This document shows, one piece after another, positions 35,661-46,935 of a stretch of 64,000 bases of DNA; position 1 is the first letter of the stretch; the number at the start of each line of letters is the position of its first letter. Source of the DNA: an uncultured Arenicella sp. GTDB taxonomy: Bacteria; Pseudomonadota; Gammaproteobacteria; Arenicellales; Arenicellaceae. Under the pieces are notes generated by a model. It had not been told where the DNA came from. It worked only from the letters and a program-made list of their open reading frames with translations, and did not search any database. A program made the position numbers and the translations under genes. The DNA is taken from contig CALAKU010000022.1 in NCBI GenBank assembly GCA_937922925.1, positions 42,041 to 106,040 on the forward strand, written 5' to 3'.

Positions 35661-36248
35661 ATGGCAGAAAATCAACCACCGCTTTTACTGGCGAGTTTTT
35701 ATCAACATGCATCGCTCGACAGTTTTATTCGCGAACTCAGCGATGCTAACTTTTTAGTTGAACATATTTCGCTTGCCGAAGCCGATTGGGCAGACCGCAT
35801 CTTGTCCTTGCCCGAAGCAACCCTGGTACTACTGGTGAGCGAGCTTCAAGCTCACCATCTAACAGCGATCGAATCCATTCATGGTCAACGCTCGGTGGCG
35901 ATTGTGGTTATCGCTTGCTCACACACGCTGGCTGTAAGCGATATTGTTGCTGCGGGCGTGCACGCCTACCTTGACGAACCTGTACGCCCAGATAAGTTGC
36001 CATTAATCGCGAGTTTAGCTGACGCACGCTTCAAAATGTGGCGATCATTAAGCTCGGAACTCAAGCTAAGCCAACAAAAACTGTCAGAACGTAAGCTGAT
36101 CGAGAAAGCCAAGGGCGTGCTTATGGAGCAAAAAAAGATCAGCGAACAACAAGCCTACGACCAGCTGCGCCGAACGGCCATGAACCAAGGGCAGACCATG
36201 GCGGTACTCGCCAGCCGCATTGTCTCAGTGGTGGAAATCTTTGATTGA
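35661..36248 (+). CDS. nasT: ANTAR-domain response regulator NasT (nitrate-responsive antiterminator)
   Basis: The 195-residue protein has an N-terminal receiver-like domain (about 5-120). A C-terminal ANTAR RNA-binding domain (about 135-195) shows ERKLIEKAKGVLMEQKKISEQQAYDQLRRTAMNQGQTM, the hallmark of NasT/AmiR. The receiver part does not show an obvious standard phospho-acceptor set, as in other NasT proteins, which respond by protein-protein control. NasT promotes read-through of terminators in nitrate gene leaders. It lies directly before nrtA, whose leader is structured. The usual sensor partner NasS is not next to it. Confidence 0.9.
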   Translation: MAENQPPLLLASFYQHASLDSFIRELSDANFLVEHISLAEADWADRILSLPEATLVLLVSELQAHHLTAIESIHGQRSVAIVVIACSHTLAVSDIVAAGVHAYLDEPVRPDKLPLIASLADARFKMWRSLSSELKLSQQKLSERKLIEKAKGVLMEQKKISEQQAYDQLRRTAMNQGQTMAVLASRIVSVVEIFD

Positions 36249-36397: not shown

Positions 36398-36415
36398 TTG
36401 GCACACTTCCTGCTT
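36398..36415 (+). promoter_or_regulatory. Sigma-54 promoter for the nitrate assimilation operon
   Basis: CTTGGCACACTTCCTGCTT has GG at 36400 and GC at 36412, exactly 10 bases between. Transcription would start near 36425, leaving a leader of about 235 bases before nrtA. Confidence 0.75.
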
Positions 36416-36424
36416 TGACTAATT

Positions 36425-36658
36425 CGAGCACTATTGGAATGCGGGCTTAGCGCTTCGCTTGTCTTGCATTCACCGATTCGTTCAATGAGCAGAATGATCA
36501 ATAGTGGGCAACCTTAGATCTCACGCACGATGCAGCGATGAGGGATATGCAAAACCACAACGGCGTTGTTTTGTCATTAGAAGCAAAGATGGCTTCATTA
36601 AGAAAAAGTGCGCTTAGCGCCCAATTTCACTTTTTGACAAAAACGAATTGAGGTTTTT
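36425..36658 (+). promoter_or_regulatory. Structured 5' leader of nrtA, probable NasT (ANTAR) antitermination element
   Basis: Starting four bases after the predicted +1, CACTATTG (36429-36436) pairs perfectly with CAATAGTG (36499-36506). Immediately inside it GAATGC (36437-36442) pairs with GCATTC (36466-36471). A further stem CTCACGC / GCG-A-TGAG lies at 36520-36542 and CAAAA...CAAC / GTTG...TTTTG at 36550-36573. Before the ribosome binding site AAAAAGTG / CACTTTTT (36603-36635) encloses GCGC-TTA-GCGC and ends in five Ts, like a terminator. I could not assign the canonical ANTAR hexaloops with certainty. Confidence 0.5.
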
Positions 36659-38026
36659 ATGTTTCGCAGTTTACGAAATGCCGTTGGCATTGTTCTATTG
36701 TCGATTTCTTGTATTTCTTTCAACAGTCTCGCGGTGGCCGAGATTGGAGAGCCAGAAAAAGACGAACTCAAATTTGGCTTTATTAAGCTGACCGATATGG
36801 CGCCCATCGCCATCGCTTACGAGAATGGTTACTTTGAAGACGAGGGTCTCTACGTCACTATTGAGGCGCAAGCCAACTGGAAGGTGCTGCTTGATGGCGT
36901 GATTGATGGCACTTTAGATGGTGCGCATATGCTGGCTGGTCAGCCGCTCGCAGCTACGATTGGTTATGGCACTGAGGCGCATATCGTGACGCCGTTTTCT
37001 ATGGATTTAAATGGCAATGGAATCACAGTCTCCAATGACATTTGGGCAAAAATGAAAGAACACGTGCCAGTTGAAGATGGCAAGCCAGTGCATCCCATCA
37101 AGGCCGATTACCTCAAGCCGGTTGTCGACTCATTTAAAGCCGAAGGCAAGCCCTTTAAAATGGGCATGGTGTTTCCAGTATCGACGCACAATTATGAATT
37201 ACGTTATTGGTTAGCCGCGGGCGGAATTCATCCGGGCTACTATGCGCCGCACAAGGGCGATACCGCGGGTACCATCGATGCTGATGCATTGTTATCAGTA
37301 ACACCACCACCGCAAATGCCAGCAACCTTGGAGGCGGGCACGATTTATGGATATTGCGTTGGAGAGCCTTGGAACCAGCAAGCCGTTTTCAAAGGCATCG
37401 GTGTGCCGGTGATTACCGACTATGAAATCTGGAAGAACAACCCAGAAAAAGTATTCGGAATGACCAAGGAGTTCACTGAAAAATACCCCAACACCACCGT
37501 AAGAGTGGTTAAGGCGCTATTGCGGGCAGCTAAATGGTTAGACGAAAACAACAATGCTAATCGGCCCGCCGCGGTAAAAATCCTAGCGCAATCAAATTAT
37601 GTTGGCGCGGACTACGACGTGATTGCCAATTCCATGACTGGCACTTTTGAGTATGAGAAAGGCGATAAACGTGATGTGCCAGACTTTAACGTTTTCTTTC
37701 GGTACAACGCGACCTATCCCTATTATTCCGATGCGATTTGGTATCTCACTCAGATGCGTCGCTGGGGGCAAATCTCAGAGCCGCAAAGCGATGATTGGTA
37801 TAAGCAAGTCGCAGCTGATGTATACAAGCCTGAGATTTACGCCATGGCGGCAAAGGAGTTGATCGCCGAGGATCTGATGAGCGCGACTGACTTCCCTGAT
37901 TTTGAAACTGAGACCGGTTTTAAGCCGGAACAGACCGAATTCATCGATGGCGTGTCATACGACGGCAGTCAACCTAACGCCTATCTCAAGAAGTTTGATA
38001 TCGGTCTAAAAGACGAAACCTTGTAA
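36659..38026 (+). CDS. nrtA: Nitrate/nitrite ABC transporter substrate-binding protein NrtA
   Basis: NrtA is the periplasmic nitrate-binding component of the NrtABC importer (CmpA/NrtA/NasF family). A signal peptide (about residues 1-29, ending AVA) precedes family strings [48 protein letters not shown] and [13 protein letters not shown]. The 455 residues are normal. The signal peptide shows it is the secreted transporter component and not the related cytoplasmic sensor NasS. An AGG lies before the ATG. It is first in the sigma-54-driven nitrate operon. Confidence 0.94.
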
Positions 38027-40098: not shown

Positions 40099-41337
40099 AT
40101 GAAAAACCTACTTAGAAACCAAATATCAAATTTAGTGTCAGTAACACAGATCGTATTGGCGGCAGTCGTAATCACGGCTCTAAATGCCTCTTTCTCTTAT
40201 GCTCAGCAAGCAGAGCCGAGCGCGAGTAAGGCCAACTATGGAAAGGTCTACGGCGACCTGCGCTTGCGATACGAGACTGTGAGTCAAGACAATCCATTGC
40301 CCGACGCGGATGGGCTAACTCTGCGAACACAACTTGGTTATAAATCACCAGAGCTGAATGGTTTTTCTGGCGTTATCGAGGTCGAGAATTCAGTCAGTTT
40401 AGTTGACGATTTTTCTGTGCCGCCCACCGGAGATCGAGTTGGTGAGTTTTCCGTAATTGCCGACCCCGACCATACGGAACTTGATCAAGCGTTTGTCCAA
40501 TACAAGTCTGATTCACTTACCGCAAAACTGGGTCGCCAGGTTTTCACTTTGGACGGGCACCGCTTCGTTGGTCACGTTGGATGGCGACAAGATCGCCAAA
40601 CCTTTGATGGCTTAGTCGTTAATTACAAGCCATTGGACAATTTCGAAATCAATGCCTCATACATAGCTCAACGTAATCGTATTTTTGCGGAAGACGCCGA
40701 CCTTGATAGCGAAGACATGATTTTGAATTCGTCGTATCAGACGCCTTACGGTAAGTTGGTCACCTATGCGTACTTTCTAGAGGTCGATAATGGCACGTCG
40801 AATTCGCTCGATACGATTGGTGCGAGTTTCGCGGGTAAGCAAAAGCTAGGCGAGACAGCCGTCTTATACACCGCCGAATTTGCTACTCAAGAATTAAACG
40901 ACACGTTTGATAGCGACTATCTTTTTGTTGAAGCCGGCGTCAGTCAATTTGGAATCACGGCTAAGCTTGGCTATGAAACCTTGGGTTCAGATCAAGGCAA
41001 TGCCAGTTTTCAAACGCCATTAGCCACACTTCACAAGTTTAACGGCTGGGCGGATCTCTTTTTGGTCACGCCAGCTCAAGGTTTGGAAGATGTGTATCTC
41101 AGCCTGTCAGGGAAGTTGGCAGGCGGTAAATGGGTTGCGGTTTACCATGATTTTTCTTCTGACATCGTTGTGGATGGCAACTCCGACCTAGGCGATGAAA
41201 TCAATCTTCTTTATACCCGAAAATTCACTGACCAATTCTCTGGCGGCTTGAAGTATGCCGACTACTCAGCTGGCGACCAAGCATTCAATCGAGTGGATAC
41301 TGAGCGCCTATGGGTTTGGGGCGGATTCAAATTTTGA
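40099..41337 (+). CDS. Outer-membrane beta-barrel porin (alginate-export-like) in the nitrate operon
   Basis: A signal peptide (about residues 1-36, ending SYAQQA) is followed by alternating hydrophobic and polar strands typical of a beta barrel. VYGDLRLRYETVSQDN comes first, AFVQYKSDSLTAKLGRQVFTLDGHRFVGHVGWRQDRQTFDG is an AlgE/alginate-export-like region, and the C-terminus GGFKF ends in the aromatic residue needed for BAM recognition. The 412 residues fit a 16-18 strand porin. It lies between the nitrate importer and nirB in the same direction, so it may let nitrate or nitrite across the outer membrane (inference). Confidence 0.78.
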   Translation: MKNLLRNQISNLVSVTQIVLAAVVITALNASFSYAQQAEPSASKANYGKVYGDLRLRYETVSQDNPLPDADGLTLRTQLGYKSPELNGFSGVIEVENSVSLVDDFSVPPTGDRVGEFSVIADPDHTELDQAFVQYKSDSLTAKLGRQVFTLDGHRFVGHVGWRQDRQTFDGLVVNYKPLDNFEINASYIAQRNRIFAEDADLDSEDMILNSSYQTPYGKLVTYAYFLEVDNGTSNSLDTIGASFAGKQKLGETAVLYTAEFATQELNDTFDSDYLFVEAGVSQFGITAKLGYETLGSDQGNASFQTPLATLHKFNGWADLFLVTPAQGLEDVYLSLSGKLAGGKWVAVYHDFSSDIVVDGNSDLGDEINLLYTRKFTDQFSGGLKYADYSAGDQAFNRVDTERLWVWGGFKF

Positions 41338-44259: not shown

Positions 44260-46935
44260 ATGTCAAACAATACGGTATCAACGACTTGCCCATACTGCGG
44301 TGTCGGCTGCGGCCTTGTCGTGACAAAAAAAGCGGCGTCTAAAAACCAACAACAAAGCTTCAGTGTTCAGGCAGATGCCAATCATCCAGCAAACCTTGGT
44401 CGCTTTTGCAGTAAAGGAGCGGCGCTGGCCGAAACCTTGGAGGCAAAACACGAACCACCGCGATTAGACTCGCCAATGATTAATGGCAAAGTGAGTTCTT
44501 GGCAACACGCGACCCACGAAATTGCCTCGCGAATTAATTCGCTTAGCGAAAATTATGGTGCCGACTCCATCGCGTTTTATCTCTCTGGGCAACTTCTTAC
44601 CGAAGACTACTATGTTGCCAATAAATTTATGAAGGGCTTTATTGGCTCGGCGAATGTTGATACGAATTCGCGCCTTTGTATGTCGTCTGCGGTGGCCGCG
44701 TATAAGCGAGCCTTTGGTTCAGACACTGTGCCATGCGACTATCAAGATATAGATGCCTGTGACTTGATCGTTTTGATTGGCTCAAACGCTGCGTGGACCC
44801 ATCCAGTGTTGTATCAACGCATAATGGCTGCCAAGCAGCGACGGCCCGATTTAAAAATTGTTGTTATCGATCCGCGTGAAACGCCAACAGCGCAAAGCGC
44901 CGATTTGCATCTTAAGATTACTCCCAGCAGCGATGCATTTATCTTCCAAGGCTTATTGCGTTTCTTGATTGAGAAAGATGCGATCGATCAAAATTACATC
45001 GACGCATCAACCGAACACTTTGAGAGCGCTAAAGCCGCCTGCTATGAGCTAAGCCAAGACCAGGTAGTTAAGGCCAGCGGGGTCAGCGCTGAATCGCTCA
45101 GTACTTTTTATAGATGGTTTGCCACTACCAAAAAAACCATCAGTTTTTACTCGCAAGGCATCAATCAATCCGCCAGCGGCACAGACAAAGCCAACGCGAT
45201 TATCAATTGCCATCTTGCCACCGCAAAACTCGGTTTTGCCGGCGCCGGGCCGTTTTCTATCACCGGGCAACCCAACGCCATGGGCGGTCGCGAAGTAGGC
45301 GGTTTGGCCAATATGTTGGCCGCGCATATGGATTTTAACGAGCAAGATTGCGATCGCGTACAACGCTTTTGGCGATCGCCAGTGATCGCGCGGCAGCCCG
45401 GTTTAAAAGCGGTAGACTTGTTTCAAGCGATGCATCGCGGCGAGATTAAGTTTGTGTGGATTATGGCAACCAACCCGGCCGTGAGCTTGCCTGACTCTAA
45501 CTTTGTTCGAGAAGCTTTGGCCAAGTGCGAAACGGTTGTGGTATCCGACGTGACGCATACTGATACCACTGCTTTCGCAGACATTGTTCTGCCAGCTCTG
45601 GCCTGGGGCGAAAAAGACGGCACGGTGACCAATTCCGAACGCTGCATCTCAAGACAGCGAGCCTTTAAGTCTGGCCCAGAGCTGGCGCGTGCTGACTGGC
45701 AAGCCATTGCCGAGGTCGCCTGCCAGTTAGGGTTCAAAGAAAGCTTTGACTATAAAAACTCTCGCGAGGTGTTTATCGAACACGCAGCGCTATCCGATTT
45801 CGAAAATGAGGGCCAACGGGATTTTGATATTGGCGTGCTCGCACAATTAAGTCTTGGGGATTATGAGGCTCTTAAACCCAGCCAATGGCCTTTGCCAAAA
45901 ACACCAAGCTCTGATCGATTATTCTCCGATGGGCGCTTTTATACGACGAGTAAGAAGGCTCAATTTGTACCGATAAAAGCCGAGTTGGCGATAGCGCTGA
46001 ACGAAATTAAGTCTGCTCAGCAAAAATCTAAGTGCGAATACATTTTGAATAGTGGTCGCGTTCGCGATCAATGGCACACCATGAGTCGCACCGGTTTTGC
46101 GCCCGCCTTGACCCTGCATGCGGCAATGCCTGAGGTGACTATTCATCCAAGCGATGCTAAGGCTGAGGGCTTACGAGACCGCCAAATTATTTGCGTAAGC
46201 AATGAGTTTGGTAGTGTCATGGCTCAAGTCAAACAAAGCGCAGAAGTAAGTGTTGGCGAATTATTTCTTCCAATGCATTGGTCAAACCAATTTTCTAAAC
46301 AAGGCCTGGTCAATGCTTTGACGCCGCAGCGTGTTGATCCAATCTCTGGTCAACCGGAATTGAAAGCCTCGAAAGTTACCTTAAGACCTCTCAAGAAACT
46401 CACCTGGTTGCGACTAATAAGTAATGCCAAGCTCGAAAGTAAGCCGTCTTTTATGGTTTGGAATACGCATTACGTCGGGCAGGCATGGGTCACCACGATC
46501 GGTATAGAAAAGCGTACGCCTCCTCACACCGTTAATCATTCGTACATCGACGCTTTGTTTGCTGACGAGCTTGATCTTAAACCGGGCCAATCTTTTTATA
46601 ACCCACTAAAGTCGGTGGGTATTGAAATACTGGTGACTGATGAGGGCCTGTTTGGGATTCTGGCTAAAAGCGACGAGAGTGATGCCTTGCCTAGCGAGTT
46701 ATGGCTTAAAAGTTCGTTTGAATCAACGGATTGGTCGAGAGCGATTCGTGGAGAGCAAGAAGAATATGATGAGCTCGTTTGTGCTTGTTTTTCAACCACT
46801 AAGAATCAGCTTCGCCAACTCGTGAGCAATGGAATGAATACATTAGAAGCTTTATCCGCCAATGCCGGTTGCGGATCGAAATGTGGGAGTTGTCGGCCGG
46901 AGTTAACGCAGTTAATAAACGCACATACACAATAA
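44260..46935 (+). CDS. nasA: Assimilatory nitrate reductase catalytic subunit
   Basis: NasA is a cytoplasmic molybdopterin enzyme reducing nitrate to nitrite. The N-terminal 4Fe-4S motif is CPYCGVGCGLVV with the fourth Cys in GRFCSKGAAL. The MGD-binding domains follow, with NSRLCMSSAV, WIMATNPAVSLPD and the C-terminal molydopterin dinucleotide domain (RDQWHTMSRTG). A BFD-like 2Fe-2S domain at the end (CACFSTTKNQL...CGSKCGSC) is typical of proteobacterial NasA. The 891 residues are normal. It is the last gene of the operon; no terminator is seen after it. Confidence 0.96.
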   Translation: MSNNTVSTTCPYCGVGCGLVVTKKAASKNQQQSFSVQADANHPANLGRFCSKGAALAETLEAKHEPPRLDSPMINGKVSSWQHATHEIASRINSLSENYGADSIAFYLSGQLLTEDYYVANKFMKGFIGSANVDTNSRLCMSSAVAAYKRAFGSDTVPCDYQDIDACDLIVLIGSNAAWTHPVLYQRIMAAKQRRPDLKIVVIDPRETPTAQSADLHLKITPSSDAFIFQGLLRFLIEKDAIDQNYIDASTEHFESAKAACYELSQDQVVKASGVSAESLSTFYRWFATTKKTISFYSQGINQSASGTDKANAIINCHLATAKLGFAGAGPFSITGQPNAMGGREVGGLANMLAAHMDFNEQDCDRVQRFWRSPVIARQPGLKAVDLFQAMHRGEIKFVWIMATNPAVSLPDSNFVREALAKCETVVVSDVTHTDTTAFADIVLPALAWGEKDGTVTNSERCISRQRAFKSGPELARADWQAIAEVACQLGFKESFDYKNSREVFIEHAALSDFENEGQRDFDIGVLAQLSLGDYEALKPSQWPLPKTPSSDRLFSDGRFYTTSKKAQFVPIKAELAIALNEIKSAQQKSKCEYILNSGRVRDQWHTMSRTGFAPALTLHAAMPEVTIHPSDAKAEGLRDRQIICVSNEFGSVMAQVKQSAEVSVGELFLPMHWSNQFSKQGLVNALTPQRVDPISGQPELKASKVTLRPLKKLTWLRLISNAKLESKPSFMVWNTHYVGQAWVTTIGIEKRTPPHTVNHSYIDALFADELDLKPGQSFYNPLKSVGIEILVTDEGLFGILAKSDESDALPSELWLKSSFESTDWSRAIRGEQEEYDELVCACFSTTKNQLRQLVSNGMNTLEALSANAGCGSKCGSCRPELTQLINAHTQ

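Follow-up and report, generated by a model that had tools for sequence, protein, structure and literature searches.

What is recognised in the nrtA leader by the neighbouring NasT protein, and by which step would nrtA expression then be controlled? The question is raised by positions 36425–36658 of the window, the term used here for the whole analysed stretch of 64,000 nucleotides. In the textbook view, the ANTAR leaders of Proteobacteria and Firmicutes act as antitermination switches. The preliminary description of the locus regarded the leader as a probable NasT target under nitrate-controlled antitermination and proposed that its fold could be a variant ANTAR RNA.

Gene order, NasT and the promoter

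The window host is an Arenicella-type marine gammaproteobacterium whose closest NrtA relatives among named records are Arenicella MAGs. The gene order is nasT (35661–36248), leader, nrtA (36659–38026), permease, ATPase, porin-like protein, nirB, nirD-like gene and nasA-like reductase. The features of the locus are the following:

35661–36248, + strand: nasT, ANTAR-domain RNA-binding regulator of 195 aa with a degenerate receiver-like N-terminal domain
36398–36414, + strand: sigma54-type -24/-12 promoter TTGGCACACTTCCTGCT, start predicted near 36425
36429–36506, + strand: 5' stem with a 78-base span, made of an 8-bp outer helix, a 9-bp inner helix and a side hairpin
36549–36574, + strand: P1, ANTAR hexaloop hairpin GCAAAACCAC[AACGGC]GUUGUUUUGU, loop at 36559–36564 with A1 and G4
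36575–36579, + strand: P1–P2 linker of 5 nt
36580–36596, + strand: P2, GAAGC[AAAGAU]GGCUUC, with A1 and G4, a 5-bp stem and one extra G
36603–36635, + strand: weak hairpin AAAAAGUG/CACUUUUU with a U run at its end, at best a poor terminator
36650–36653, + strand: nrtA Shine-Dalgarno GAGG, able in silico to pair with either the 5' arm of P1 or the 3' arm of P2, not above chance in this leader
36659–38026, + strand: nrtA, nitrate ABC transporter substrate-binding protein (Pfam NMT1_2, 320.7 bits), first gene of an nrt-nirB-nasA cluster with NrtD-type ATPase, NirB and NasA-like reductase downstream

The Pfam ANTAR model matched residues 138–188 of NasT with 69.8 bits. The residues contacting the hexaloop in EutV have been determined as R142, K143, K147, K149, E160, Y164, R168, M172, N173 and R175 (PMC8934654). 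Nine of these ten are identical in the window NasT, the exception being R175, which is replaced by G. Both results confirm that the adjacent nasT encodes an ANTAR protein, as proposed earlier, and the ANTAR residues were intact in all Arenicella compared. In the case of the N-terminal domain, no receiver domain was detected in the window NasT by the receiver model, which does recognise NasT from a nasT-nasS locus (50.9 bits). An alignment of 25 NasT showed the homology of this domain with its counterparts in other NasT.

All 12 Arenicella leaders have the TGGCAY-N5-TGC core at the position of the promoter. The sigma54 site would place the transcription start near 36425, in agreement with the start predicted in the preliminary description. 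The promoter type, the hairpin motif described below, its conservation and the intact ANTAR domain are supported at the level of sequence.

The twin hexaloop and the 5' stem

A textbook twin hexaloop had not been recognised in the leader before: P1 and P2 (36549–36596), which lie between the two structures that were then described, the 5' stem and the last hairpin, were overlooked. The P1 stem consists of a C-G closing pair and an A-U pair below the loop, one C-U mismatch and seven more pairs. Compared with the usual definition, an A1/G4 hexaloop on at least 3 bp, P1 has the loop and the pairs, of which strictly just 2 are consecutive before the mismatch. The linker is short, as in the E. faecalis eut genes, where it spans 5–12 nt (PMC3369931). 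P2 is not a clean hexaloop hairpin, since the MAG assembly of this one genome shows an extra base in it: G36592 may be bulged, with G36591 as the closing base, or the loop may be AAAGAUG, of 7 nt. The stability of P2 was reached by 2 of 200 shuffles (z -3.24). When folded alone, 36547–36600 gave exactly P1 and P2; in the MFE structure of the whole leader P1 was unformed.

The conservation of the motif was determined with the nrtA leaders of 12 Arenicella genomes and a further 78 leaders from other gammaproteobacterial loci; the contigs of L018 and L105/L019 are identical with those of genus members. At the position of P1, all 12 Arenicella leaders have the sequence C[AAYGNN]G. With P1 anchors placed by eye, 10 of the 12 could be aligned without gaps, and in these 6 of the 11 P1 pairs were changed on both sides. 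The fraction of pairing cells was 82.7% compared with 74.2 ± 2.5 in shuffles, and the covariation score was 0.410 compared with 0.303 ± 0.044, slid versions all being far lower. The compensatory changes that had been suggested as a check on orthologous leaders were thus found in P1, which is not among the stems first described. The spacing of P1 and P2 is 42–120 nt in most other Arenicella, compared with 26 nt in the window leader, and in several species P2 is imperfect or could not be recognised.

Upstream of nrtA, this motif was also present in most of the other Gammaproteobacteria examined. Hairpins with an ANNGNN loop were found in most leaders at least once, commonly about 65–130 nt upstream of nrtA and often with another close upstream. 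The leaders of Alteromonas, Porticoccaceae, Colwellia and others (L020–L097) carry the same P1/P2 loops at the homologous position, for example GGAAC[AACGGG]GUUCC...GAGC[AAAGGC]GCUC in L080. Some nrtA leaders (L040–L043, L050, L074, L084, L086, L096) contain three or more A1/G4 hexaloop hairpins. Neither hexaloop hairpins nor a strong terminator were detected by the scans in L034, L048, L063 and L073 of other genera, where nrtA is probably under different control.

A covariance model was built from 18 twin motifs of nrtA leaders from other genera, with linkers padded or trimmed to equal length, and contains no Arenicella sequence. In the training motifs 95% of cells pair and 54 cells are double-changed, compared with 18 in shuffles, a statistic that is partly circular because the members were chosen for pairing. 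In unfiltered scoring, 36554–36597 was the top match of the 64-kb window with 17.3 bits and an E-value of 0.012 (runner-up 12.6), and the same site ranked second in the 2.7-Mb genome with a genome-wide E-value of 0.49; both E-values are rough because the calibration was short. The sole higher match of the genome, 19.9 bits, lies antisense within guaA. Further NasT targets in the genome were considered and rejected, as this match looks like chance and the remaining ones are weak. No Rfam 15 family matched the leader, either at the gathering score or at E up to 10, and the collected nrtA leaders are already suited to building an Rfam-type family.

The conserved motif, its rank with the covariance model and the adjacent intact NasT support the earlier view of the leader as a NasT target. 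It is likely that NasT binds P1/P2 and thereby raises nrtA expression. The transcript would be started near 36425 by the sigma54 promoter, and the nascent RNA would fold into P1 and P2, offering in their loops the A1 and G4 read by ANTAR proteins. The presumed binding of NasT would then stabilise P1/P2, with a presumably positive effect on nrtA.

The proposed variant fold is not needed, since the textbook elements of a dual hexaloop, from A1, G4 and the C-G closing pair to the short linker, and an intact NasT already support the NasT-target reading. The structure behind that proposal does exist: the first bases pair over a 78-base span with a second stem stacked inside, and in the leader fold the outer helix was located at 36429–36436/36499–36506 and the inner helix at 36437–36445/36463–36471. 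The stability of 36425–36510 was moderately beyond chance (z -2.24; 3 of 200 shuffles as stable), and that of the whole 234-nt leader was not exceptional (z -1.37; 22 of 200). The stem was detected neither in 17 congeners nor at a second site of the own genome, and with no second copy a mobile or repeated element was rejected. The distance from the start to P1 is just 24–66 nt in 10 of 11 congeners, which leaves no counterpart of the stem. The 78-base stem is specific to this species, and neither it nor the last hairpin is the NasT site. Binding of the stem by NasT, which would make it a novel type of ANTAR RNA, would be in line with the moderate excess of stability, but is extremely improbable: the stem has no A1/G4 hexaloop, it is absent from all congeners, and the normal ANTAR site sits just downstream of it.

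Terminator and readout of the proposed NasT binding

A hairpin was counted as a strong terminator if its folding energy was -18 kcal/mol or lower and a T-rich tract came after it. Of the 78 leaders from other genera, 65 have such a terminator; its 5' arm overlaps a hexaloop hairpin in 62 of them, an arrangement expected under antitermination, so that P2 would exclude the terminator. In contrast, the same scan detected none in the 12 Arenicella leaders (Fisher p about 2e-8), a loss that probably represents one evolutionary event because Arenicella is one lineage. The leader is very probably a NasT target with a known RNA motif, and the unusual part is the missing terminator.

The last hairpin of the window leader has its arms at 36603–36610 and 36628–36635. 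This is the final AAAAAGTG/CACTTTTT hairpin described earlier, with a gap to the ATG at 36659 of 23 bases instead of 24. The segment 36600–36640 folds at -7.2 kcal/mol, which is at chance level (z -0.97; 35 of 200 shuffles as stable), and the hairpin was not listed by the terminator scan. Thus a hairpin is present where a terminator-like one had been described, but it is weak, is no classical terminator and does not exclude P2.

Ordinary antitermination could still operate if this hairpin stopped RNA polymerase unless NasT held P1/P2. A hairpin ended by a U run does lie between P2 and the ATG, and in L099, the congener nearest in NrtA, UUUUAUU is preceded by a hairpin of moderate strength (-11.9 kcal/mol). 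However, the window hairpin is no stronger than its shuffles, and the -18 kcal/mol attained in 65 of the 78 other leaders is not reached in any Arenicella leader. Moreover, the hairpin does not overlap P2, and its formation would therefore not be excluded by NasT. Antitermination at a weak terminator is possible but rather doubtful.

In the congeners L099, L100 and L101, which are without a strong hairpin-plus-T-tract, a downstream arm is kept whose pairing with the 3' arm of P2 exceeds that of almost every shuffle (p at most 0.003). In the window leader such anti-P2 pairing was at chance (-6.4 compared with -7.2 in shuffles, p 0.63). These results indicate that the terminator is degenerate across the genus, and most so in the window leader, in which the second hairpin is not mutually exclusive with an intrinsic terminator as in an ANTAR attenuator.

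With the strong terminator gone, the readout in Arenicella would be either weak termination or another step, for example the freeing of the Shine-Dalgarno sequence. In the latter case, the P1 5' arm (AAAACC.CAA) or the P2 3' arm (GCUUCA) would pair with the Shine-Dalgarno UUGAGGUU when NasT is absent, and NasT would free it. The P1 arms are indeed paired with the Shine-Dalgarno region in the leader MFE structure. Comparable pairings were seen in several congeners, most markedly in L102, L107 and L103. The pairing CCUCGA:UCGAGG of L102 and L107 has about -14 kcal/mol, the Shine-Dalgarno being paired at 0.98–1.00, and that of L103 has -12.7 kcal/mol. In L102 and L107, ACCUCGA, located beside and within the P1 5' arm, perfectly matches UCGAGGU, which would make P1 and the Shine-Dalgarno pairing mutually exclusive. 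Terminator-less ANTAR RNAs near ribosome-binding sites have also been described (PMC3369931; PMC8164766). The controls give this mechanism no clear support. When native arms and tails were compared with species-swapped ones, the p values for the P1 5' arm, P1 3' arm and P2 3' arm were 0.13 (0.26 without L107), 0.51 and 0.04 (uncorrected), respectively. The Shine-Dalgarno pairing did not exceed that of shuffles in most species, the window leader having 0.65 natively and 0.56 when shuffled. Translational control by this route is tentative and somewhat unlikely. As a genus-wide rule, Shine-Dalgarno sequestration was rejected, the swap and shuffle controls giving no support. A genus with the hairpins but no strong terminator offers a natural setting in which to ask whether translation is under ANTAR control outside Actinobacteria too.

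The nitrate sensor and related systems

NasS is an NrtA-like protein that keeps NasT inactive until nitrate binds (PMC3795266). The NMT1_2 model scores true NasS at 245 bits and is thus able to find it. Only NrtA was matched by this model, and no NasS was found, in the own genome (87.6% complete) and in the congeners G003, G007, G012, G013 and G015 (95–99% complete). The order nasT-nasS-leader-nrtA is present in loci of Porticoccaceae and others, and nasT-leader-nrtA in Colwellia, Psychromonas and Arenicella. The loci L041, L043, L061, L074, L084, L086 and L096 (Colwellia, Psychromonas, Oleiphilus, Thalassotalea) have the latter order with no adjacent nasS. When genomes of Colwellia, Psychromonas and Oleiphilus were searched, no further match with a score in the NasS range was detected. 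Since the leaders of these genomes keep strong terminators, the missing NasS and the missing terminator are separate traits. The term nitrate-controlled is uncertain for Arenicella because no NasS was found. The antitermination originally proposed is only partly right: the leader is very probably a NasT target, but a strong hexaloop-overlapping terminator is absent in 12 of 12 Arenicella leaders, and cytosolic NasS, the usual nitrate sensor of NasT, was not found.

The same absences could mean that the regulation is decaying: NasS lost, the terminator eroded, nrtA under sigma54/NtrC alone and the hexaloops mere remnants. The P2 hairpins that are imperfect or unrecognised in several species would fit such a decay. 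However, the P1 loop and stem are kept across 10 species with compensating changes and the NasT ANTAR residues are intact in all, and the decay is judged unlikely.

The Arenicella leader shares with the nasA leaders of the NasS-NasT systems of Paracoccus denitrificans (PMC3795266) and Azotobacter vinelandii a NasT-family ANTAR protein, a place in nitrate assimilation and the hexaloops. It differs in that no nasS and no strong terminator were found and in that the N-terminal domain of NasT is too divergent for the receiver model. The nasF leader of Klebsiella oxytoca also has an A1/G4 dual hexaloop in a nitrate-assimilation leader. Its regulator NasR has a NIT sensor domain, and its intrinsic terminator overlaps the second hairpin (PMC3369931), unlike in Arenicella. 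The eutP leader of Enterococcus faecalis and its regulator EutV have in common with Arenicella two hairpins with A1/G4 loops, a short linker and the ANTAR contact residues (PMC3369931, PMC8934654); the second eut hairpin overlaps the terminator, whereas P2 of Arenicella does not.

A genus keeping the protein and the RNA hairpins without terminator or sensor would show how such a switch is rewired. In Arenicella, a NasS-less NasT may act on a dual hexaloop uncoupled from the terminator, and nrtA may be controlled at a different step, with freeing of the ribosome-binding site as the likeliest one; such a rewired circuit is put forward with reserve as a somewhat unlikely candidate.

Two further observations concern the downstream cluster. 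The genes of the nitrate ABC transporter are separated from nirB by a gene at 40099–41337 for a porin-like protein (Alginate_exp, 47.5 bits), perhaps an outer-membrane nitrate porin. The NasA-like nitrate reductase at 44260–46935 has a NirB-like C-terminal stretch, its residues 832–890 matching TIGR02374.
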